From positions 186,001-250,000 of the forward strand of contig UGYN01000002.1 in NCBI GenBank assembly GCA_900457075.1: a DNA stretch of 64,000 bases, written 5' to 3'. The translations under genes were made by a program, and so were the position numbers. The DNA comes from Serratia quinivorans (lineage in GTDB: Bacteria; Pseudomonadota; Gammaproteobacteria; Enterobacterales; Enterobacteriaceae). The notes under the pieces are model-generated. The model saw only the letters and a program-made list of their open reading frames with translations. It was not told where the DNA came from and did no database searches. This document shows, one piece after another, positions 1,868 through 38,036 of the stretch (position 1 is its first letter; every line of letters begins with the position of its first letter).

Positions 1868-4429
1868 TTAGCGCTGACCTTGCGGATGAGCCCGTTCATT
1901 GTGTGGCAATTGCTGGTAATGCTCACGCCAGGCGGCACCTTCCGGCAACAACCAGACACGTTGATGCAGGCGCGACAAGGCAACGGGATCGCTCAACAGT
2001 TCCAGGCGTTTGCCCTTCACCAATTTCTCCGGCCCCAGTTGCAACGCCTCATTCACCCGCTCTTCACGATTGCGCTCGATAGCACCACGCAGATGGTGAC
2101 GCGCAGTTGCCAGCGCAGCCGCCAAAGCATTGAACGACGGGTTAACCACGGCGTGCATAAAGCCATTGGCCAGTGCACGTTCACGGTTAAGCTGCAGATA
2201 CTCTTCGGTCGCCAGCAGTTCACGCGGAGGAGAATACTCTTCCGGGATCAGGAACAGTTTGGCGCGCTTGCTCTTGATCCCCAGCGTCGCACGGCTCGAC
2301 AGAGACGAAACGATCGGTGACAGGATCAGTGAGAAGACGATTGGCGACAACCACCACAGGAAGCGCAGATCCAACCAGGCCATACCCCCCGCCCAGACCA
2401 GACCGAGCAGCATCTGTGAACCATGGCGCTTAAAGGCTTCGCTCCATGGCGTGTCATCATCGTCACGCTGCGGAGAATTCCACACCACTTCCCAACCGAG
2501 GAAGGCGCTGACCACGAACACCGTGTGGAACAACATCCGTACCGGTGCCAACAGCACCGAGAACAGCATTTCCAACAGCATCGACAGGAACAGACGCACA
2601 CCACCGCCGTATTCTTTGGCACCCTTCGCCCAGATCAGCACGATACTGAGCAGCTTGGGCAGGAACAACAGCACCAGAGTGGTAGAGAACAGCGCTATTG
2701 CCAGTTCAGGACGCCACTGCGGCCAGACCGGGAACAGCTGACGTGGCTGCAGGAAGTACTGCGGCTCCATCAGGGTATGCACCACCTGCAACGCGGTGGA
2801 CAGCGCCAGGAACATAAACCACAGCGGCGCCGACAGATAGGACATCACACCGGTCAGGAACACCGCACGGTGCACCGGGTGCATGCCCTTCACCAGGAAC
2901 AGACGGAAGTTCATCAGGTTACCGTGGCACCAGCGACGGTCACGCTTCAGTTCATCCAACAGGTTAGGCGGCAATTCTTCGTAGCTGCCCGGCAGATCAT
3001 AAGCAATCCACACGCCCCAACCGGCACGACGCATCAGTGCGGCTTCCACAAAGTCATGCGACAAGATGGAACCGGCAAAAGAGCCTTCACCCGGCAGCGG
3101 TGCCAGCGCACAGTGCTCGATAAACGGCTTCACGCGGATAATCGCGTTGTGACCCCAGTAGTGCGACTCGCCCAATTGCCAGAAATGCAGGCCAGCGGTA
3201 AACAGCGGCCCGTAGACCCGGGTGGCAAACTGCTGCACACGGGCATACAGCGTATCCATACCCGAAGCTTTCGGCGCAGACTGAATGATGCCGGCGTTCG
3301 GGTTGGCTTCCATCAGGCGCACCAAACCGGTGAGACACTCGCCGCTCATCACGCTATCGGCGTCCAGGATCACCATATAGCTGTACTCGCCACCCCAGCG
3401 ACGGCAGAAGTCGTCGATGTTGCCGCTTTTACGTTTCACGCGGCGACGACGGCGGCGATAGAAGATACGGCCATGGCCATCTACGTCACGGCACAGTTCC
3501 ATCCAGGCCTTCTGTTCCGCCATGCAGATATCCGGGTCGTAGCTGTCGCTCAGCACGTAGATATCGAAATGTTCAAGCTGGCCGGTGGCGGCAACCGACT
3601 CATAGGTCGCGCGCAGGCCGGCGAACACCCGTTCGACGTCTTCGTTACAGATAGGCATGATCAACGCGGTGCGGTGCGCCGGATTAATTGGCTCATCGCC
3701 CTTGATGGTGGAGGAGATACTGTATTTGTCTTTGCCGATCAGCAGTTGCAGGAAGCCCATCAGCGCAGTCCAGAAACCGGCCGATACCCAACAGAACAAA
3801 ATGGCGAACAGGATCAGAATGCCGGTTTGCAAAACGTAAGGCAGCAGTTGCAACACCGACTGCATCAAGTCCTGATCCAGCATCGCCATAGGATCGATCA
3901 GCGCCCAGCCCTGATACGGCAAAATGGTTTTCATGTACCAGGTAGCGATACCGGTCTGCACCAGCATCAGCACCAACAGCACATAACGGCGCATCGAACC
4001 GACCACGCGCCAGCGGTTTTCCGCGGCGGCTTCCTCTTTGGAAGCATGGCGGTTGTGCGGTGAACGCCCCAGCAGAGAATCCCAGAAACGTGCCACCGGA
4101 TTGGTACGCCAGGCTTCAGGGAACATGCTGGTACGTTTAATCGGTGGCGTGGCCTTCAAAATACTGCGGCCTTCCACGTCATTGTCAAAATCGTCGTCGC
4201 TGACCGCATCCGGCCAGGCACTTTCGATACGCGCCTTGACCGAGGCCAACGCCACGTCATCCGCCGACAGCGTATTAACGTTGGCATCGGCGGCACCCAT
4301 CTTGCGATGCAGTGCCTCCAGTGCCTCGGCGTCATCCGCTCCAGGCTGGGGGTTAAGCGCCTCCGACCGCTCAGCGGTCAGAGGCATTGCCGCAAGATAA
4401 TCCTGGGCAAGTTGAGTAGGCTTATTCAT
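1868..4429 (-). CDS. mdoH: Glucans biosynthesis glucosyltransferase H
   Basis: An 853-residue inner-membrane glycosyltransferase family 2 enzyme (E. coli 847). It polymerises UDP-glucose into the beta-1,2-linked backbone of osmoregulated periplasmic glucans and probably moves the chain across the membrane. Visible are N-terminal transmembrane helices, the catalytic domain with [15 protein letters not shown] (DxD) and the RDRRWCHGN acceptor motif, then several C-terminal helices. The start [12 protein letters not shown] was chosen because it matches homologues and gives an 8-bp overlap (ATGAATAA) with the mdoG stop, indicating translational coupling. A longer frame upstream has no family support. 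Confidence 0.95.
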
Positions 4430-6030
4430 TGGCAGGTAGCTGATAGCTCCAGGTTTCCGACAGGGTCTTATCACCATTGACCAGCGCGGCGCGCATTTCT
4501 ACCGGCTTCTTGTCGTCTTTCACTTTCAGACGCAGCGTCAGGCGCCAGCCTTTGGTCACTGGATTATAGCGGACATTGTTTTCTACCATTTCACCGTTAT
4601 CACCGATGCTTACCTGAGCGGCAACCGGCGTAGCACCATCCAGGCCTTTCAGTACCGGCCCGACGAAGTCGACCAGGAATGCCACGCTGCCGTCTGGCTC
4701 GCGGATCAGGTTAGACTGCTTCACGTCACCGGTAGAGCGCATGGTCTGGCTGACGTAGGCAATATCCTGTGAATGCAACTTGTCTTCGTCACGGGTGAAA
4801 TGCAGGCGATAGTTCAGCGCCAGCGGTGTCTTGGCATCCGGCAACACGTCTGGAGTCCAGAAAGCAACGATGTTGTCATTGGTTTCATCCGCCGTTGGGA
4901 TTTCCACCAATTCAACTTTACCTTTGCCCCAGTCGCCACGCGGCTCAATCCAGGCGCTTGGGCGCAGATCGTAACGATCGTCCAGATCTTCGTAATCCTT
5001 GAAGTTACGACCACGCTGCAGCAGACCGAAACCTTTAGGGTTCTCGACCTGATAGGTGCTGACGGACAAATGCTTCGGATTATTCAGCGGACGCCAGATC
5101 CACTCGCCGTTGCCGGCATGGATAGACAGACCGTTGGAATCATGCAACGCCGGACGGTAGTTCAGAGTTGGTGAAGGTTGGTTCGGCCCGAACAGGTACA
5201 TGCTGGTCAGCGGTGCCATGCCCAGTTTGCCGACCTTGTCGCGCAGGAACACTTTAGACTCGACGTCTACCGTGGTATCGCGGCCCGGATAGACCACAAA
5301 ACGGTAAGCCCCGGTAGCGCGCGGTGAATCCAGCAGCGCGTAAATCACCAGGTGCTTGTCGCCCTGCTTCGGACGTTCAACCCAGAATTCGCGGAAACGC
5401 GGGAACTCTTCACCGGATGGCAAGGCGGTATCAATGGCCAGACCACGGGCGGAAATCCCGTAAACCTGCCCTTTACCTACCACGCGGAAATAGCTCGCGC
5501 CCAGCAGGCTCATAATTTCGTCGTTCTTATCCGCACTGTTGATCGGATAAATCACCTTGAAACCGGCGAAGCCGAGGTTTTTTTACCGAATCCGGATCGT
5601 GCTTCACCGAACCAAAGTTGAAGTAGTCCGGGCTGTACTTGATCTGCTTGACGGTGGTCGAGGTGACCTCGTTGATTTTCACCGGCGTGTCGAAGTACAT
5701 CCCCTGATGATAAAACTCAAGCTTGAATGGGGTTTTCAGCTTGCTCCAATAGGCTTTATCGTGATTGAACTGAATTTGCTGATAGTCCGCGAATTTCATC
5801 TCACGGAATTGAGAAGGAAGGTTGCTTTTCGGAGCCTCGAAGCCTTTCCCTGCCAGATCCTGCGCCTGCTTGGCCACATCATCAATAGAAAAAGCCCATG
5901 CTGGCGAAGTCAACAGCGTGAACAATACGGTCGCACCTAACCAACGTACGCTCGCGGCGCGTGGTTTCTTGGATAATATATTAACTAGCACATCCCCCCC
6001 TATTCGTGTGCTCAAATCATTTAAATCCAT
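4422..6030 (-). pseudogene. mdoG: Glucans biosynthesis protein G, frameshifted
   Basis: Periplasmic MdoG/OpgG works with MdoH in making periplasmic glucan. The N-terminal frame (6030 to about 5580) has a Sec signal ending LLTSPAWA and then [17 protein letters not shown]; the rest (from 5578) resumes with [19 protein letters not shown] and ends WSYQLPANE, exactly as in E. coli. The two parts lie in different frames. A run of seven A on the coding strand (5578-5584) where six would give VKNLGFAGF explains this: one extra base. As written the protein stops after about 167 residues. The start is uncertain: 6030 gives a long leader before the signal peptide, and an internal start is possible. A sequencing error is as likely as a mutation. 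Confidence 0.9.
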
Positions 6031-12959: not shown

Positions 12960-13054
12960 TGGCGCGCTATGCAGGACTCGAACCCGCGTCTATCAATTTT
13001 GTAGCCAATAAAGCATTTTAAAACCAACCACTCTGCCAACTGAGTTAATAGCGC
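12960..13054 (-). tRNA. Atypical tRNA-like gene or tRNA pseudogene
   Basis: The 95-nt minus-strand sequence has a perfect 7-bp acceptor stem (GCGCTAT with ATAGCGC), discriminator G and encoded CCA, a 4-bp D stem (ACTC/GAGT, loop AGTTGGCA) and a 5-bp T stem around TTCGAGT. The 40 nt between the D and T arms form no standard anticodon stem in any register I tried. It resembles tRNA-Lys in the D and T arms. It may be a decayed tRNA, one with an insertion, or an unusual class II form; the anticodon cannot be assigned. Confidence 0.5.
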
Positions 13055-14490: not shown

Positions 14491-16427
14491 ACGCTATCAT
14501 TGAGCTGAAAGGCATCGGCCGCACCTACACCAACAGCAGCCAGCCGCTCACCGTCCTGAAAGACATTAACCTCAGCATCGCTGCCGGGGAGTTGGTCGCT
14601 ATCATTGGTGCTTCTGGCTCCGGCAAATCCACACTGATGAACATCATTGGCTGTTTGGACGTGCCGGACCAGGGCGACTATTACATCAACGGCCAAAACG
14701 CGGCTCATCTATCGCCGGACCAACTGGCCAGGCTTCGCCGCGAACACATTGGTTTTATCTTCCAGCGTTATCATTTAATGCCGGATATCAGCGCGCTGGG
14801 CAACGTCGAGATCCCTGCGATTTACGCCAACAGCAAGCGAGACCAACGCCGACTGCGTGCAGCGCAACTATTGGCGCGACTGGGGCTGGAAGGTCGTGAA
14901 CACCATAAACCCGGTCAACTCTCCGGCGGCCAGCAACAGCGCGTCAGTATCGCACGTTCGTTAATCAACGGGGCTGAAATTATCCTGGCGGATGAGCCCA
15001 CCGGCGCCCTGGACACCCGATCGGGTCAGGAAGTGCTGGAGATCCTCAGCGAACTTAATCAGCGCGGCCATACGGTAGTGATCGTCACTCACGATATGAA
15101 GGTGGCGCAGCACGCACAGCGCATTATCGAACTGCAGGACGGCGAGATAGTCGCCGACAGTGGTCGTAAATCGGCACTTCCTCTGCCGATAATGAAAAAG
15201 GCCCCACCGGTTGCTCAAGGCTACTGGCAGAGTCTGCTCGATCGCACCCGCGAATCGTTACAGATGGCGCTGAAGGCCATGAATGCCCATCGCTTGCGTA
15301 CCGCACTGACCATGACCGGCATCATTTTCGGCATTGCTGCGGTGGTGACGGTGGTCGCGCTGGGTGAAGGTGCCAAGCAGCGCACGCTGGAGAGTATAAA
15401 AAGCCTGGGCACCAACGTGGTCAGCATCTACCCCGGCCGTGATTTCTTTGATGATGCCATCGACAGCATCCGCACTCTGGTACCGGCGGATGCCGACGCG
15501 CTGGCCCGCCAAAGCTTTGTCGATAGCGTCAGCCCTGAGGTCACTGCCTCAGACAGTATCCATTTTCGCAGTAAATCAGCCAACGCGTCGATCACTGGTG
15601 TTGGACGCGATTATTTACGCGTTAACGGGCTCACTCTGCTGCAGGGTCGCAATTTCCAGGACGACCGCAACGCTTTACAGGAAGTGATCATTGACGAAAA
15701 CGCACGCCAGTCGTTGTTCGGTGATTTCGGCGTTGAGCCGCTAGGCCAGATCGTGTTTCTTGGCGCAGTACCGGCCCGGGTGATTGGCGTGGTTAAAAGT
15801 AATCAGGACTCTGCCCCCAACCGCATCAGAGTGTGGATGCCCTATACCACCGTCATGTACCGCATGGTGGGCCAAACCAAGTTGAGCAGCATTAGCGTAA
15901 GGTTGAAAGATGACGTTGCCAACGAAGCCGCTGTCACCGCCATTGAGCAGCTGCTGACCCAGCGTCACGGCGTTAAAGACTTTATGTTGTTCAACCTCGA
16001 TAAATTCCGTAAGTCGATCGAACGAACTTCGATGACTCTCAGCCTGCTGATCCTGATGGTGGCCTCAATTTCCCTGATCATCGGCAGCCTCGGCGTGATG
16101 AACATCATGCTGGTCTCAGTGACCGAACGGACGCATGAAATCGGTGTGCGTATGGCCGTCGGCGCTCGTCGCAGCGACATTATGCAGCAATTTATGATCG
16201 AGGCGGTGCTGGTCTGCCTGATCGGTGGCGTACTGGGCATTTTACTGTCTTTCGCCGCCGGCTCGCTGTTCACTCTGCTGGCGGGCGGCATGCTCACCGC
16301 CATCTATTCCTGGCAGGCCGCCGCCGTGGCCTTTTGCTGCTCCACTCTGATCGGCATGATCTTCGGTTATCTCCCGGCCCGCAAAGCGGCGCGGATGGAT
16401 CCGGTCATTTCACTGGCCAGCGAGTAA
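14487..16427 (+). CDS. macB: ABC transporter MacB, ATPase and permease
   Basis: A 646-residue fusion. The N-terminal ATPase has Walker [10 protein letters not shown], signature LSGGQQQR and Walker [14 protein letters not shown] linker, one transmembrane helix, the MacB periplasmic domain and three C-terminal FtsX-like helices follow ([20 protein letters not shown]). MacB uses ATP to drive periplasmic substrates through MacA and an outer-membrane channel. The start is GTG in a GTGA overlap with the macA stop. Confidence 0.94.
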
Positions 16428-28425: not shown

Positions 28426-28608
28426 GTGAAGAAAATTTCTGATACTCGCGTTGCACCAGCAAAATCTGGTGCCGGGATTTGTACCCCGAAGGAATTGGCT
28501 GCAATAGACGCGCCAGCGTCTTTTTTATTGCCAGCGCATAGCCACATCCAAATTATGGTGGGGCGTGCAGGGGAGTCGAAAGGCTCGCCGGTTGCCTTTT
28601 CCCGGTAG
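28426..28608 (+). CDS. Ash-like phage/satellite protein
   Basis: A 60-residue GTG-start frame beginning MKKISDTRVAPAKSGAGICT and containing MVGRAGESKGSPVAF near the end, the recurring MVGRAG...G.PV motif of the Ash/Icd-like family in P4-type satellites and lambdoid prophages. In P4 this region is the immunity leader. Only one motif supports the call and no strong ribosome site is present. Confidence 0.45.
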   Translation: MKKISDTRVAPAKSGAGICTPKELAAIDAPASFLLPAHSHIQIMVGRAGESKGSPVAFSR

Positions 28609-28649
28609 TGCAAACCCTGTACGTCTCACCATCTTAAGATTTGCACCTG

Positions 28650-28877
28650 ATGGTGGTGATAATCCAAAATGAGCAGAACCATAAGCGCAATTTCGCTCGC
28701 TTCGAACACGGCAAGCGAGCAGGTGATGGCATCGGAAAACTTACACTTAATGAACTGCAGGAAATGGTCACACAGACGCGAAAAACACGAGAACACTGGC
28801 TGAGGCAATATCAGGATTTGATGAGAGGTCAGAGTCGCAGCAAATGCTTTACCAAAAATACAAAATTAAACAAATAA
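28650..28877 (+). CDS. Small hypothetical phage protein
   Basis: A 75-residue frame with the core FARFEHGKRAGDGIGKLTLN, then ELQEMVTQTRKTREHWLRQY. The hydrophilic helical composition looks coding. Its final codons (KLNK, stop) coincide with the repeated CAAAATTAAACA box, so the C-terminus lies inside a repeat. Start uncertain; a TTG at 28641 is also in frame. Confidence 0.4.
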   Translation: MVVIIQNEQNHKRNFARFEHGKRAGDGIGKLTLNELQEMVTQTRKTREHWLRQYQDLMRGQSRSKCFTKNTKLNK

Positions 28878-29106
28878 ATACGTGAAATAATCTCCGAAAG
28901 GTTTTATATATTTAGTAAGCAAGTTTGTGGCTTGCTAAGCCTATGTAGAGTACCAACCCAAGTGCGATATACTTACGCCTCATGAAGTCATAGTTTGTTC
29001 CTACCCCTTCCGGCTTACGTCTCCGTAAGCCGGCTTTTTTTAAAGACAAAAATTTAGACTTATCTCCGAGTAGAATTACCTAACTGCGCAGATCCAAAAT
29101 TAAACA
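28861..29106 (+). repeat. Box-bounded module, copy A
   Basis: Bounded by two copies of CAAAATTAAACA (28861 and 29095, 234 bp apart). Inside, GTGAAATAATC and AAAGGTTT near the left box and CAACCCAAG in the middle are shared with the module at 37560-37785. A stem AGCAAG/CTTGCT (28917-28937) and a terminator (29010-29041) are present. No gene fits inside. Confidence 0.6.
29010..29041 (+). terminator. Rho-independent terminator inside module A
   Basis: CCGGCTTACG pairs perfectly with CGTAAGCCGG across a 4-nt loop, followed by a C and seven T. Confidence 0.9.
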
Positions 29107-29186
29107 CAAAAAAAGCTGAAATCCCCCCCCCAAAAAAACTATTGTGTTGTTACACAAACTCTTCTTACTTAGGAACTTTTTCGAAT

Positions 29187-29321
29187 TATGGCAGAGTGAG
29201 GTTTCCGGGACATGGACGTACAATAGCACCCGAGCTTCACCACCTCACTCTGCCGCCATACAATGACGAATGCATCACGGAGAACAACACAGGCATGAAC
29301 GGGCCGTGTTATTTTCGTCAC
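29187..29321 (+). ncRNA. Structured repeat element, copy 1
   Basis: Two successive hairpins. The first has a perfect 12-bp stem GGCAGAGTGAGG (29190-29201) with CCTCACTCTGCC (29243-29254). The second pairs TGACGAA...CACGG (29264-29280) with CCGTG...TTCGTCA (29304-29320). The same order of motifs recurs at 29509 and 31821. The third hairpin of those copies is absent here. Function unknown; a small RNA or a DNA site is possible. Confidence 0.55.
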
Positions 29322-29356
29322 ACAATTAAAAGGTTATTACGAAATAATGAGGAATC

Positions 29357-29452
29357 ATGACTTATCGCTGTAAGGTTTGGTTAATTGTTTTTGGAGCATG
29401 CTTCCTTTTTTGGGCAGATATGGTAACTATAATTTCTTCGGGATGGGGATAA
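29357..29452 (+). CDS. Small membrane protein, 31 residues
   Basis: ATG at 29357 with a good TGAGGAATC ribosome site opens a frame starting MTYRCKVWLIVFGACFLFWA and ending SSGWG, one transmembrane helix. It lies between structured element copies 1 and 2. Family unknown. Confidence 0.5.
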   Translation: MTYRCKVWLIVFGACFLFWADMVTIISSGWG

Positions 29453-29508
29453 AAAAGAGCTTGCTGTATTTTTCACCCTCAACTCTCACAGGGTAGCTTT
29501 TCTCAAAT

Positions 29509-29696
29509 TATGGTAGAGCGAGGTTCACGCGCGAGAAAATGGTTGCAGCGCTCTGTTTTTCACTTTCGACCTCACCTTGCCTCTACACGATGACGATGGC
29601 ATTACGTAACCGAAGGTATCATAAGACTGTTTTTCCTTCGTCACCTAAATATGGCGGGGTGGCTTTTCAGGGAGTGAATATTCCAGCACCCCGCCT
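29509..29696 (+). ncRNA. Structured repeat element, copy 2
   Basis: Follows a terminator-like ACCCT/AGGGT stem. It repeats AATTATGGTAGAGCGAGGT, then ACCTCACCTTGCC, CGATGACGATGGCATTACG and CCTTCGTCA, matching copies 1 and 3. A third hairpin has a perfect 9-bp stem GGCGGGGTG (29653-29661) with CACCCCGCC (29687-29695). The first stem is weaker than in the other copies. Confidence 0.5.
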
Positions 29697-29748
29697 TCAC
29701 CAGGCTTAAAGGGCATATCCCCTCAGAATGGGGATTGATAATTACAGA

Positions 29749-29919
29749 TTACAACACCAGTATCACAGAATGCAGTCCGGGGGCGTTTCTACACCATCGC
29801 ACCAAGCAACCTACTGTCGCGTCCTCACTTTGTATAGATTGCAGGTAAGCAATCGTAACGAGTGTGTAAGAACGACAATACATCCGGACACATAAAAAAG
29901 CTGGCCCCATAAAAATCAT
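29749..29919 (-). CDS. Small hypothetical protein, 56 residues
   Basis: ATG at 29919 has a very good ribosome site (ACAGGAGGGGGC). The frame starts MIFMGPAFLCVRMYCRSYTL, mildly hydrophobic, and ends LHSVILVL. It follows the 48-residue membrane protein on the same strand. Its position after a paralogue pair member mirrors that of the 98-residue frame at 30090-30386. Coding is plausible because of the ribosome site, not the composition. Confidence 0.35.
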   Translation of the reverse strand: MIFMGPAFLCVRMYCRSYTLVTIAYLQSIQSEDATVGCLVRWCRNAPGLHSVILVL

Positions 29920-29968
29920 GCCCCCTCCTGTAATCTGAAAGTGATCCTGAACGCCAGCCCAAAATTTT

Positions 29969-30115
29969 TCACTCCCCTCCCCAAAAATCACCAATAGCAA
30001 TGAGTGCAGCGGTCGCTATTACCACCAATAACAACACTAGCGCTATCGGAACTGAAAGCGGGACGAAATCGTGAAACCATACTGCAAGGTCATCCCACAT
30101 ATTTTCTGTATGCAT
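29969..30115 (-). CDS. Small membrane protein, 48 residues, paralogue 1
   Basis: ATG at 30115 after GGAGGATAT. The frame starts MHTENMWDDLAVWFHDFVPL; a long helix ending VVIATAALIAIGDFW follows. It is clearly homologous to the protein at 30399-30533, sharing MWD, the VVIATAALI helix and the GD-hydrophobic-WG end. A single-pass phage membrane protein; a role in lysis, exclusion or signalling cannot be told. Confidence 0.65.
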   Translation of the reverse strand: MHTENMWDDLAVWFHDFVPLSVPIALVLLLVVIATAALIAIGDFWGGE

Positions 30116-30386
30116 ATATCCTCCTTTTATGGCCATAACAGAACAATCCCCAAGAGTGGGGATTGCTGCACCTCACTAATATCTGCTTTTTAAGATTCAG
30201 CATCTCCATAGACTTCTGGATTAACTCTTCCACTTTCGCTAAACAACCGCCTCTATTGGGTATTGTGAAGCCTACTAATCTCAATGCATACCAAACCAAG
30301 ATAGCGATAGCTACGACCGCAGAGAGGACTAAAAAACTAATTACCGTGATCAGCCTGATCCCAAACAACAAAAAACCATGAAACAA
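30090..30386 (-). CDS. Hypothetical membrane protein with TTG start
   Basis: A 98-residue frame starting at TTG with AGGAGG about 8 bp upstream: MFHGFLLFGIRLITVISFLV, a second hydrophobic stretch to VWYALRLVGF, then a polar tail. It starts 12 bp after the 44-residue paralogue stop and overlaps the 48-residue gene by 26 bp. The polar tail past residue 70 looks unusual, and the true gene may be shorter. Confidence 0.4.
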   Translation of the reverse strand: MFHGFLLFGIRLITVISFLVLSAVVAIAILVWYALRLVGFTIPNRGGCLAKVEELIQKSMEMLNLKKQILVRCSNPHSWGLFCYGHKRRIYAYRKYVG

Positions 30387-30398
30387 AAGTCACACCTC

Positions 30399-30533
30399 CT
30401 AATCATCACTCCCCCATAAATCACCAACGACAATGAGTGCGGCGGTCGCTATTACCACCAGCAACACCACCAGCGCCACAGGGACTATGAACGGGGTAAG
30501 ATCGTAAAGCCATTCTGTAACTTCATCCCACAT
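30399..30533 (-). CDS. Small membrane protein, 44 residues, paralogue 2
   Basis: ATG at 30533 after GGAGGGGAAAGC. The frame starts MWDEVTEWLYDLTPFIVPVA; the helix ends VVIATAALIVVGDLWG. It is a paralogue of the 48-residue protein at 29969-30115; the DNA over the helix is also very similar, so the duplication is recent or conserved by selection. Confidence 0.65.
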   Translation of the reverse strand: MWDEVTEWLYDLTPFIVPVALVVLLVVIATAALIVVGDLWGSDD

Positions 30534-30785
30534 GCTTTCCCCTCCAGTTAATTTTTTCACCTACGGAGCAATGAATAAGGGTGTAGCTATTCATGTCAGA
30601 AACATCGCCCCCCTGCCAACATAACCTGTAAGCAACACCGGAAAAATTGGCATCAATTTAATTTTCTCAACCTGCATCCTTTGCACCATAAAAAATCAAT
30701 GAGGCCTCCCTTATAGACCGATAGATTTTCATTGCGCAATGATGTCGTGATTCAAAATTAAACTATTAAAGGGGTGCAAAAGAAA

Positions 30786-30805
30786 AAGCCCGGCATGCCG
30801 GGCTT
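30786..30805 (-). terminator. Rho-independent terminator
   Basis: AAGCCCGGCA and TGCCGGGCTT form a perfect 20-bp palindrome; on the minus strand TTTTTC follows. It ends the 31034-30825 gene. Confidence 0.8.
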
Positions 30806-30824
30806 AGTGAGAGGATGTTTGCGG

Positions 30825-31034
30825 TTACTGCATGTGACTTTCTTTACTTGGTTCTACTGTCGATACCTCTGAGTCGCTGTCGAAACTTTCCTCTTCTATT
30901 TTCCACTCCTTCTGAGTGATAATTTCTATTATCTCGCTAATGATTTCACTGATTGCATAAGCTGTTATGAAGAAAAGAAAATATAAACCTATCGCCAGCC
31001 ACACCATCCAGAATACGATCACGCCTATTTCCAT
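30825..31034 (-). CDS. Small membrane protein with acidic tail
   Basis: A 69-residue protein: MEIGVIVFWMVWLAIGLYFL begins a long transmembrane helix or hairpin, followed by an Ile/Glu-rich amphipathic helix and a Ser/Glu-rich tail ending PSKESHMQ. The start at 31034 has GAGGGCGTCAATA upstream. It follows the 31351-31076 gene on the same strand and is closed by the terminator at 30786. Confidence 0.55.
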   Translation of the reverse strand: MEIGVIVFWMVWLAIGLYFLFFITAYAISEIISEIIEIITQKEWKIEEESFDSDSEVSTVEPSKESHMQ

Positions 31035-31075
31035 TATTGACGCCCTCGATAATGAGCCCCTTATGGAGCAGATTG

Positions 31076-31351
31076 TTACTTCCAGGCATTCCTGGTCGAA
31101 ATCTGGGCCTGGAACCAACTTGCCGTCACCTCATTGCTTGACCTCTCAATCAAGGTTTTGAGTATCACTTTACGTATATTTGGACTTCTCAGCTCGCTGT
31201 AGCTGAACACCTCTTCCACAAATGTATCGTCAACTTGAAGAATAAAGACCAGCATGTCTCGCCCCCGCGGTTTGATGAGATACCCCATATCCATGGCCGT
31301 AATAATTAGCCTGGATAACGTTAAACGCTTATACCAAAAACGATTATTCAT
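31076..31351 (-). CDS. Hypothetical protein
   Basis: A 91-residue soluble, basic protein starting MNNRFWYKRLTLSRLIITAM with a beta-rich centre (MLVFILQVDDTFVEEVFSYS). Not recognised. Its ATG (31349-31351) abuts the GTG of a divergent frame, so at least one of the two starts must be wrong or the two are expressed from distant promoters. Confidence 0.45.
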   Translation of the reverse strand: MNNRFWYKRLTLSRLIITAMDMGYLIKPRGRDMLVFILQVDDTFVEEVFSYSELRSPNIRKVILKTLIERSSNEVTASWFQAQISTRNAWK

Positions 31352-31726
31352 GTGATTAAGTCTTTTGATTTGAATCAATGCAAGCTTTATAGAACGGTGC
31401 TCATTTATTGTGCAAGCCGCACGTTATTCAGAATTAAATTATCGGAACGATACGAAAGAATAAGCCCGGTGATGCAGGCTAGATGGGCGGACTACCTGCG
31501 TTTTCTTCCAGAGGGTCAGCAGATAGAACTGGGCCATCTCTATTTTGTCAGTTCCTGTTGTAGCAGTCCGATCAGCTCCATGAGGTTTGTCCATAGCGAA
31601 ATATTGGAAGCAACGCAAATATCTAATAAGTATTATCTTGCCATAAATCAGGTAGTCGCACTCGCATCATCCCTTTCACACAAAAATCCAGAATTAAACA
31701 AAAAAATAGCTGAAATCCGCTCATGA
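31352..31726 (+). CDS. Hypothetical protein
   Basis: An open frame of 124 codons from GTG at 31352. The part from about residue 31 (LSERYERISPVMQARWADYL) onwards looks coding; ATG at 31472 is an alternative start. It ends NPELNKKIAEIRS, a stretch that coincides with the repeated box (31689-31700), and degenerate versions of this ending are seen at the other boxes (29095, 37774). Function unknown. Confidence 0.4.
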   Translation: MIKSFDLNQCKLYRTVLIYCASRTLFRIKLSERYERISPVMQARWADYLRFLPEGQQIELGHLYFVSSCCSSPISSMRFVHSEILEATQISNKYYLAINQVVALASSLSHKNPELNKKIAEIRS

Positions 31727-31820
31727 ACAAATTATTGTGGCTCTGCATAATCCCTAGCGTGTATATATAATTTTTAATCTCCGTTTTCGCCCTTGGCCTA
31801 CGCAGGGCGCTTTTCCGAAT

Positions 31821-32020
31821 TATGGCGGGGTGAGGTTTGAGCGGGAACATGGATGCGACTCATGAGGCCGAGGTCGTGATCTATGTTCGTCCTCACCCTG
31901 CCACCCACACAATGACGAAAGCATCACGGTAAAGCGGCTATGGCATGAACGAGACCGTGTTGCCTTCGTCCCCCATATGGCGGGTAGCTTTTCAGGAAGT
32001 GAATATTCCAACACCCCGCC
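31821..32020 (+). ncRNA. Structured repeat element, copy 3
   Basis: Stem 1: GGCGGGGTGAGG (31824-31835) with CCTCACCCTGCC (31891-31902); compared with copy 1 one A-U pair has become G-C by changes on both sides and another is a G-U wobble. Stem 2: TGACGAA...CACGG (31913-31929) with CCGTG...TTCGTC (31955-31970). Stem 3: around 31979-32020 with CACCCCGCC. It ends 4 bp before the stop of the collagen-like fibre gene on the other strand. Confidence 0.55.
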
Positions 32021-32023
32021 TTC

Positions 32024-33535
32024 TCACTCCGTTTCCTGATACGGCTTAATCTCACCGTACATCCCTGCCCTGGCGTTCCAATAAATAATCGGCCCATACG
32101 AGGTACGGTCTGATGCCATCGCAGTAAATGGATGCCACTGGCCATTGACCAATATCTCGCAATCAAAAGCTGCCGTTACGCCCGGATAGCAATACTTGCA
32201 ATTTCGCACATGCGTGCCCAGCCTGGCGCTCTCAAGCATTGCCGTTGGTGTCAGTAAGGTAGTGCCGTCTGTACGGGCCATCACTGTGACCGTCGTTGCC
32301 GATTGCTCCGCTGATGCCAGAACACCCCATACCGCCCAGGTGCCTGAAGCTAAATTGGACGCCACCATCACGGTGCCATCAGACAACAACCCCGCATACG
32401 CAAGCTTAGAACCGGATACCGCGCTATCAGGGGCTGCCGTATAGGTGCCGTTGGTAACCTGCATCAGCGCTGTAGAGCCCGGCCCTCCTGCCAGAGGAAG
32501 ACCAACAGCACCATCATTGCCTTGCGGAATGCCAAAATTAATCATTTGGTTGGGAGCGTCACCAGTGATCTCTACGGTGGCATCCTCCCCTGGCCCCAGC
32601 GTGCTCACCGTACCAACCGTCAGTGTGTTAGGTGGTGCACCAGAGGAACCTTGAGGTCCGGTCTCCCCCTGAATTCCCTGCTCTCCCTGCGGCCCTGGAG
32701 GACCTTCCGGCCCGGTATCACCTTTAGGTCCCTGTGCACCAGTGTCACCTTTCGGACCTCGTGGTCCCATCTCACCCTGCAGACCGGTCTGATAGTCATC
32801 TTCCGTCCCCGCGTTCCCTGCATCCAGCCATACCTGATACGCCGTGGCCCCGCTATCGCCCTTCGGCCCCTGAGGGCCGGTGTCACCCTGAGGACCGGCT
32901 GACCCCTGTGGTCCCGTTTCCCCTTGCGGTCCGGTACTGCCGGTCTCTCCTTTGGGGCCCTGCGGTCCGGTGTCACCCTGGGTGCCACGCTCACCATCAG
33001 CCCCTGCCGAGATAAACAGCTGCCATGGCACCGCCGGCGGCTCGACGCCCTCCACGTCCTCCGTGGCCAGGTATTCACTGCCGGTATATTCGACCAGGTC
33101 ATTTTTCTGGTAAGACATATCGGCGCGGAATGCACCGCGGGGAATGAGTGCATATTCCGCCGCCATTTTCGCTGACTCCCTCGCGCTGGCCGCCGCCAGC
33201 TCAGCTTCCAGCAGCAACAACTGCATCTCGCGCAGCGCTTCCGGTGTCGCATCGTCCGGATTGAATTCCGCCAGGTACTGATTAAGCGTGCCATCCGGGC
33301 TGTCTGCGTAAACCTGGATAATACCCAGGTAGTCCGGGGCATTGTTTATTGTGGCGGTGACCGCATAAACGCCCGGCATCACCGGCATGGCATAGCTTCC
33401 GTCCGTCGCCGTCACCGCAGCCGCATTTGTACCGGTAATGCTTACTGACATGGTTTTTCTTGCCGTCAACTGGATGACCACATCCGGCATCGGCATACCA
33501 AACGGATCGTTAAAAATTCCCGTGATAATGGCCAT
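32024..33535 (-). CDS. Phage fibre with collagen-like repeats
   Basis: A 503-residue protein. Residues 1 to about 125 form a prophage tail-fibre N-terminal domain ([20 protein letters not shown]). Two Gly-X-Y blocks (about 178-230 and 254-298, units such as [13 protein letters not shown]) should form a trimeric collagen-like rod, split by a short [13 protein letters not shown] insert that is also common in such fibres. A beta-rich C-terminus without obvious family follows. It directly follows the gpD gene, stop and start adjacent. Confidence 0.85.
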
Positions 33536-37432: not shown

Positions 37433-37555
37433 ATGAGCAAACTGACAATCGCCGAAACCGTTCAGCTCTGGATAAATACAAAAGCAGTATCTGATAAATA
37501 TCCCACCCTGATTTTGAAAATACCCTCAGTGCGCGCTAAAACACGCGGAGCATAA
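37433..37555 (+). CDS. Possible small protein, 40 residues
   Basis: ATG at 37433 after GGAAGGTC opens MSKLTIAETVQLWINTKAVS and ends RAKTRGA, just before the left box of module B. Basic and helical. The ribosome site is the main support. Confidence 0.3.
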   Translation: MSKLTIAETVQLWINTKAVSDKYPTLILKIPSVRAKTRGA

Positions 37556-37559
37556 CATC

Positions 37560-37785
37560 CAAAATTAAACAAATTAGCAAGTGAAATAATCACACTAAAG
37601 GTTTATTGTTATTTTCGACGGACATGAGCACATTCGTCAACCCAAGTCTGGTGTTTTACAAGCACAAGATGCTTGTAATTTTGTTCGTAGTTCCTTAGTC
37701 TTACGCCTCAATCTCCGTGAGGCGTTTTTTTTCAGCAGGACATCTATTTCACCCTGCGACAACCGCATAAATCCAAAATTAAACA
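37560..37785 (+). repeat. Box-bounded module, copy B
   Basis: Bounded by CAAAATTAAACA at 37560 and 37774 (214 bp apart), with GTGAAATAATC, AAAGGTTT and CAACCCAAG shared with copy A. Contains the hairpin ACAAGCA/TGCTTGT (37658-37676) and a terminator with stem ACGCCTCA/TGAGGCGT and eight T (37703-37732). Confidence 0.6.
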
Positions 37786-37901
37786 CAAAATAATTGAAAC
37801 ACCCCCTTGGAAAACTCGAGTATTACTGCGCAACACTCGAGTTTCACATAATGACCTAAAATACTATGCATTTGAACGAAAGCCATTTTTTGAATTGATG
37901 A

Positions 37902-38036
37902 ATGATTATGGGAGGAGCTTCTGATGCGGCGTCTCTTATCTTGGGCTTTTTTATTGTAATCTCTCTCTTCATTCAACTTTGTTTTATCTTTCGCTTTTTT
38001 ATTGCCATAGTCAAACACTTGGAAAAAAAGTGTTAA
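37902..38036 (+). CDS. Small membrane protein, 44 residues
   Basis: The frame starts MIMGGASDAASLILGFFIVI and ends AIVKHLEKKC: a hydrophobic hairpin or single long helix with a basic tail. It lies in the insert between FII and E, opposite to the tail genes. A 104-codon minus-strand frame over the same bases is rejected because this frame explains the composition better. Two still shorter frames (19 and 12 codons) follow but are not supported. Confidence 0.45.
   Translation: MIMGGASDAASLILGFFIVISLFIQLCFIFRFFIAIVKHLEKKC

Follow-up and report, generated by a model that had tools for sequence, protein, structure and literature searches.

The C4 antisense RNA and the isrK small RNA of phages are the closest described systems for the element reported here. 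In the parts of the published accounts on which we draw, C4 precursors are cut by RNase P at the GG that forms the 5' end of the P1 stem (PMC5320573, citing Hartmann 1995), C4 is named among the substrates of RNase P (PMC11143913), and cleavage of a model substrate by this enzyme is tied to a 3' RCCA motif (PMC12710915). In Gifsy-1 some transcripts that start at the isrK promoter are not stopped at the terminator of isrK and continue into orf45 and the gene of the antirepressor (PMC4825925, from the part consulted). Against this background we analyzed a stretch of 64,000 nucleotides (nt) of Serratia quinivorans DNA (contig UGYN01000002.1, positions 186,001 to 250,000; hereafter the window). 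It includes part of a contractile-tail prophage, as seen from PHROG matches to tail sheath and baseplate hub and from a collagen-type tail fibre. The prophage end between isrK/C4 (28453-28636) and the tail-fibre gene (32024-33535, minus strand) bears three copies of a hairpin element, all on the plus strand and at about the places given in a preliminary description of the sequence:

29184..29320, plus strand: copy 1, with the tag AATTATGG, stem 1 (29190-29202 with 29242-29254), GCCA and stem 2 (29264-29320), from sequence and folding
29506..29696, plus strand: copy 2, with a weaker stem 1 (10 of 12 pairs), stem 2 and stem 3 (CACCCCGCC, 29687-29695), and no box upstream
31818..32020, plus strand: copy 3, with stem 1 (31824-31835 with 31891-31902), ACCC, stem 2 and stem 3

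The analysis establishes the recurrence of this element, its layout, a stem 1 whose pairing is kept under sequence change, a foot shared with C4, and the lack of consistently placed antisense targets. Tentatively, and a little short of an even chance, we read the copies as hairpins of the C4 type that RNase P can probably cleave and that belong to the leaders of phage accessory transcripts; they would be reached by read-through of a small-RNA terminator.

In copy 1 stem 1 is a perfect helix of 13 base pairs (bp). Copy 3 keeps 12 of 12 pairs despite the two changes that had been noticed in the preliminary description, one A-U pair having become G-C through exchanges on both arms and another A-U pair having become G-U. 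Compared with dinucleotide shuffles the RNA folds of copy 1 (z -3.53) and copy 3 (z -3.61) are more stable, while the fold of copy 2 is not clearly so (z -1.11; 25 of 200 shuffles equally good).

Further copies are present in a second prophage of the same genome and in G016, a genome of another genus of the same family. The second prophage (locus L010, minus strand) carries two more full copies, L10A and L10B, each beside fibre 3'-end sequence, and in addition L10s. In G016 we found L11c beside the fibre gene, L12, L12b, L065 and L066s, together with the partial or decayed copies L11a, L11b and L089. Eleven stem-1 copies from the two genomes were counted as intact enough (copies 1-3, L10A, L10B, L10s, L11c, L12, L12b, L065 and L066s). 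The stem-1 alignment (A5) holds nine rows from both genomes; left out were L10A, whose stem is that of copy 3, L066s, which hardly differs from L10s, and the three copies that are partial or decayed (L11a, L11b and L089). Other alignments comprise seven rows each (A2 and A3) or five rows (A4). The structures of A5 and A4 were drawn from their own members, which biases the pairing statistics in their favour.

Across the nine rows 90.7% of the stem-1 cells pair, as compared to 43.5-57.4% after sliding by 1-3 columns. Three of the 12 pairs have changed on both sides (shuffle mean 1.4), a count that is weak by itself because 45 of 500 shuffles matched it. The number of cells changed on both sides (five) was matched by 2 of 500 shuffles, that of further pair types by 59 and the covariation score by none; since the rows are related, these shuffle counts are not probabilities. 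In L10s and L066s (GGCGGTGaCAGA with TCTGcCACCGCC) 11 of the 12 pairs are kept despite altered letters. Selection on RNA structure, as suggested in the preliminary description, is supported for stem 1 in these nine rows, with two of the five measures weak. It could be traced neither in stem 2, which is nearly invariant and offers almost no variation for covariation testing, nor in stem 3, which covariation does not support as a conserved helix. The third stem that had been described for copies 2 and 3 is present in both, with poorer pairing in copy 3, where the lowest-energy fold pairs its 3' arm with the 5' arm of stem 1 instead; one arm is altered in L10B.

The prophage gaps that contain the copies also contain two families of RNA-like sequences, A and B, which run from a box to a terminator and both start with the box CAAAATTAAAC. 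This box, pointed out in the preliminary description, proved real: the window has five exact copies, all on the plus strand, with 0.009 expected per strand from base composition. Covariance models were built from the hairpin copies without C4 (R1), with B units as members (R2) and on A units (R3). The box RNAs of the window are as follows, an open reading frame being abbreviated as ORF and amino acids as aa:

28855..29046, plus strand: A-type box RNA, terminator at 29010-29033 from the terminator scan (R3 163.8 bits, model member)
29089..29183, plus strand: shortened B-type box RNA upstream of copy 1 (R2 77.1 bits, member; R3 26.6 bits, E 0.0073, non-member)
31683..31817, plus strand: B-type box RNA upstream of copy 3, with the 3' hairpin GCCCTTGGCCTACGCAGGGC and a T tract (R2 132.1 bits, member; also found by R3, 37.6 bits, E 7.1e-5, non-member)
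37554..37737, plus strand: second A-type box RNA, in another late-region gap (R3 181.9 bits, member; R2 at 37556-37686, 27.6 bits)
37770..37893, plus strand: B-like box RNA without stem 1, 5' of an ORF of 44 aa at 37902-38036 (R2 44.7 bits, non-member)

Family A combines the shared box with three helices and a terminator. In its five rows 89.4% of the cells pair, and 6 of 21 pairs have changed on both sides (shuffle mean 2.0, matched by 1 of 500 shuffles). R3 also detects nine B units (E 1e-5 to 0.0073), and we therefore take A and B as paralogues; weaker R3 matches are at 37768 in the window (E 0.015) and at position 855 of L066 (E 0.4). The order is A then B in the window (28855/29089 and 37554/37770) and likewise in L010, L011 and L066. 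Terminators of A units were listed by the terminator scan at 29010-29033, at 6844-6820 of L010 and at 5382-5406 of L011. B units were not listed by the scanner, and their hairpin and T tract were read from sequence and alignment. The window's A and B units have no match in Rfam and are not listed by its isrK model (RF01394).

A B unit, beginning with AATCCAAAATTAAAC or a near form, lies upstream of 7 of the 11 copies (all but copy 2, L12b, L10s and L066s). In 8 of 11 the T tract ends 0-4 nt before the stem-1 tag: the gap is 3 nt in copy 3, L10A and L10B, 2 nt in copy 1 and L11c, 4 nt in copy 2, 1 nt in L12 and 0 nt in L065. A clear G+C-rich hairpin precedes the T tract in copy 3, L10A, L10B, L11c, L12 and L065.

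Box RNAs were also seen at other sites. On contig C3 of the window's genome (137,674 bases), which is perhaps a plasmid, an A unit at L226 8436-8630 (minus strand, 61.8 bits) follows a decayed antirepressor end that was read by eye. In G016 a box RNA at L227 4465-4607 (minus strand; R3, 43.2 bits) lies directly upstream of an ORF that we take to be PAPS-reductase-like and that is followed by a presumably ParB-like ORF (IbrA/IbrB-like). Rfam matches to STAXI (twice), EFASI and isrC lie near this box-RNA locus, within L227 2310-7798.

About 550 bp upstream of the hairpin copies the prophage carries a C4 gene that adjoins isrK:

28453..28526, plus strand: isrK small RNA with terminator (Rfam RF01394, 72.2 bits, gathering threshold 50)
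28551..28636, plus strand: C4 antisense RNA with the 5' end AATTATGG, as in the copies (Rfam RF01695, 71.4 bits, gathering threshold 45)

The preliminary description knew of no named RNA family with the layout of the element. At the level of Rfam this holds: RF01695 scores only 28551-28636, and no Rfam family matches the window copies at a cutoff as loose as E<=5, which places them below C4 membership. The likeness to the nearby C4 in tag and foot had been missed. C4 (RF01695) and the copies have in common a AATTATGG-like 5' tag, a stem starting with GG, a foot of the form GG...CC and an RCC after the 3' arm, and also a terminator upstream (most copies) and an ORF downstream (some). AATTATGG occurs at four sites on the plus strand of the window, namely C4 and the three copies, as compared to 0.6 expected, and at one unrelated site on the minus strand. 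The GG is preceded by T in all seven C4s and in 10 of the 11 copies; stem 1 is followed by RCC in six of the seven C4s and in eight of the 11 copies, several of these being near-identical. When 12-bp stems were scanned behind AATWATGG, the listed copies and C4s reached 10-12 of 12 pairs, except for two L012 copies with nine, and only 33 of 3000 random places reached at least 11. Across 10 loci with 121,691 bases in all, R1, which had no C4 in its training, gave a single match at E<=5, namely a C4 gene (L073 10257-10399, E 0.33); it also touches the window's C4 (E 0.57). The copies have the long basal stem with a 5' GG foot that we used as the mark of the C4 type, and judged by these features they would fit RNase P cleavage at the GG.

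A shared tag and foot would also be expected if isrK-C4-antirepressor modules had been duplicated and the copies were C4 antisense genes in decay. There is an isrK-C4 unit close by and a tandem of four more in L073, the A units at 28855 and 37554 each follow a remnant of an antirepressor gene (the weaker likeness being that at 37554, E 3e-4), and copies 2, L12 and L12b look partly worn. Yet the stem-1 interiors belong to a few recurring types, none of them C4-like, stem 2 is almost invariant, and L10s and L066s hold 11 of 12 pairs with altered sequence, where decay would hit the stems first. We consider this origin improbable.

In the 10 of 11 copies tested for antisense targets (a1/b1, a2/b2) none was consistently placed, bar a match to the terminator in three near-identical copies; all six C4s tested (seven are known here) match at characteristic offsets. 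The position of the offset served as the criterion because the raw scores lie within the shuffle null for C4s and copies alike. The orientation of copy 3, L10A and L11c, convergent on the 3' end of a fibre gene, and of L10B, convergent on a fibre fragment, could suggest an antisense RNA against the tail-fibre message, and the complementarity of the stem-1 loop to the B terminator hairpin in the three near-identical copies one against the terminated B RNA. This loop-terminator pairing is lost in L11c and L12 and is within the shuffle range, however, and copy 1 is not beside a fibre gene, which makes an antisense role very improbable in our view.

The sequences behind the copies differ. Two neighbors in the window are relevant here:

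29357..29452, plus strand: hydrophobic ORF of 31 aa behind copy 1, without a PHROG match
32024..33535, minus strand: tail fibre gene with collagen-like repeats (PF08400, PF01391), convergent with copy 3

In G016 a counterpart of the 31-aa ORF with 28 aa (17 of 25 identical, E 2e-11) lies behind the partial copy L11b, and a glycosyltransferase (PF00535) lies behind the decayed L11a. Copy 3, L10A and L11c adjoin the 3' end of the convergent fibre gene, and L10B adjoins a fibre fragment. A leader element, one of the functions considered in the preliminary description, agrees with the position of copy 1 and of these two G016 copies; copy 3 abuts the fibre 3' end. An origin of the copies from decayed fibre coding sequence is not supported: in the window (copy 3, 3 nt), L010 and L011 the end of the element lies 3-4 nt beyond the stop codon of the fibre gene.

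The different cargo between like flanks (the glycosyltransferase and the 28-aa ORF in G016, the 31-aa ORF and small minus-strand ORFs in the window) points to exchange. The A-B-stem units might mainly be homologous recombination patches between the accessory-gene cassettes that occupy late-region gaps and the end of the prophage, with the hairpins incidental or acting as terminators only. In L010 a fragment of the fibre 3' end (166 of 181 positions, 91.7%) lies beside a second copy. Between copy 3 (window 31684-32022) and L10A (L010 6425-6762) identity amounts to 99.5% over stems 1-3 and 74.3% in the adjoining B unit, which indicates that element and B unit can become separated. Recombination patches need no stem-1 pairing, however, yet this is kept under sequence change, and the tag and foot match C4, which is an RNA. 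As the main explanation we rate recombination as rather unlikely. It is plausible that the element also marks breakpoints and that cargo is exchanged by homologous recombination at the units, which would be compatible with an RNA role. A DNA recombination site, also considered in the preliminary description, is likewise conceivable.

A processed leader is proposed on the basis of the RNase P cutting of C4, the read-through at isrK and the like order of B unit, stem 1, stem 2 and ORF at copy 1. On the plus strand the layout would be a B RNA, stem 1 within 0-4 nt of the T tract, the near-invariant stem 2 and then the cargo, which is a small ORF of accessory type or else the end of a convergent tail-fibre gene. 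Transcripts from the box region would for the most part end at the terminator and yield a small RNA, and those that read through would have stems 1 and 2 as their leader. By analogy with the reported processing of C4 precursors, RNase P could then cleave the read-through RNA at the foot of stem 1, between U and GG. Such a cut would detach the small RNA and leave the accessory mRNA with a new 5' terminus, which is structured and may tune the stability and translation of this mRNA.

Several observations weigh against a processed leader. We infer transcription, RNase P cutting and the effect on the ORF from sequence. In three regions scanned for sigma-70-like promoters none is conserved at the boxes; the regions have 6 (shuffle mean 7.4), 4 (2.7) and 11 (7.3) promoter-like sites, and one weak 9/12 site ends within one L010 box. 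A T tract near the tag is absent from L12b, L10s and L066s, and behind copy 3 and its near twins there is no known plus-strand ORF. Stem 1 has mismatches in copy 2 (10 of 12 pairs), L12 and L12b (9 of 12 each). Unrelated AATWATGG places reach 9-10 pairs as well, e.g. three on the minus strand of the window. The E-values of R1 for C4 are not significant alone, and five of the seven known C4s are not listed by it. Finally, the unequal identity of stems and B unit between copy 3 and L10A must be counted here.

The search with covariance models that had been suggested in the preliminary description showed a narrow distribution. Each model was run over 392 family genomes; as the filters were stricter and scoring was confined to 6-8 candidates in each genome, weak relatives may escape these scans. 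With R1 only the window's genome (G000) and G016 were clearly positive; a third match at E<=0.01 (G021, E 0.01) was judged to be chance. R2 gave four positives at E<=0.01 (G000, G016, a weak G124, and G228) and R3 three (G000, G016 and a weak G321). The match in G228, upstream of a gene that we take to be arnB-like, was rejected as a relative as no convincing hairpins are found there. Within the genus 1 of 30 genomes, the window's own, was positive by blastn, R3 and R1, and blastn across 198 family genomes gave two positives. No blastn match was obtained with copy 3 as the query (copies 1 and 2 were not queried) against phages and E. coli genomes, nor with L010:6400-7000, from the A unit to stem 3, against phages and plasmids. 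A pattern search of viral contigs led to L013, which is identical to the window, and to L014, which is identical to L011 over 5551 bases. R3 on 80 of at least 120 viral-contig stretches scored L108, the window's phage, high and all others at E 0.08 or worse. Among the titles and abstract openings listed by the literature searches no description of the hairpin element was found.

Two sets of pattern matches were set aside. L015, from viral contigs, has no visible hairpin unit and was judged to be chance, as were 39 matches in genome contigs of unrelated taxa, these by taxa and pattern length and not individually. At L065 7001-7275 in G016 a B unit and stem 1 lie about 42 kb from the fibre-side copies, near an ORF of 2216 aa that is presumably NRPS/PKS-like.

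One further gene is located at the start of the region:

28641..28877, plus strand: ORF with the C-terminal remnant of an ORF6N antirepressor-like gene (BLASTP against L011:4581-5213, 29 of 46 identical, E 3e-17)

The L011:4581-5213 protein matches PF10543. Between copies 2 and 3 there are two similar ORFs of 53-55 aa on the minus strand (29969-30136 and 30399-30560), which share 77% DNA identity over 128 nt, have no Pfam match and look membrane-protein-like by eye. A tblastn search with the tail fibre against phages matched 950 records, none of which spans 80% of the query. The tRNA model has its sole window match at the gathering threshold at 12963-13054; the hairpin copies do not score as tRNA. 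The four tandem isrK-C4 units are located in L073 7752-10496 (G000:C2, about 256.7-259.5 kb; minus strand), about 40 kb from the window's unit, and one ORF scanned there matches Ash (PF10554) and Rha (PF09669). L011 of G016 contains two isrK-C4 units (3196-4527 and 14593-14960) that precede two similar ORFs, one of them matching ORF6N, and three sRNA-Xcc1 matches.

In comparison with known systems, the copies differ from C4 beyond the shared tag and foot. C4 has two internal hairpins (P2/P3) with a'/b', whereas folds and alignments of the copies have one long internal stem or a loose loop. Eight of the 11 copies stand 0-4 nt after a T tract, whereas in these loci C4 starts at a distance of 19-28 nt from the end of isrK; the copies are followed by stem 2, unlike C4. 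With isrK (RF01394) of the Gifsy-1 type the proposed arrangement shares a terminated RNA and read-through into a structured leader and ORFs, as far as described in the part of PMC4825925 used here; box and hairpins of the A and B units differ from it. The convergent small RNAs at lambdoid moron sites, e.g. AgvB, are likewise small RNA genes at accessory-gene sites and convergent with phage genes (PMC4104026, in part). AgvB-type RNAs are short, Hfq-bound and located behind PR' in lambdoid phages, and a C4-type hairpin is not described in the portion of that report considered here (PMC4104026). A same-strand terminator of the moron type is present here, but upstream of the ORF. Two box-to-terminator RNA families, A and B, not listed by Rfam here, are added, and the pairing of A covaries. 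Overall the element looks like a new form of a known phage RNA design. On a bolder reading, which we think rather unlikely, the phage would have made a portable leader out of the C4 foot that RNase P cleaves: a hairpin resembling a tRNA acceptor, without an antisense role any more, would sit behind a terminated small RNA and cut it from the following accessory mRNA, so that one transcript gives a regulatory RNA and a processed message at several sites per prophage. If true, this would mean that a C4-type RNA scaffold has been reused without its antisense function, and it would provide a recognisable leader signature for finding phage accessory genes and their small RNAs.

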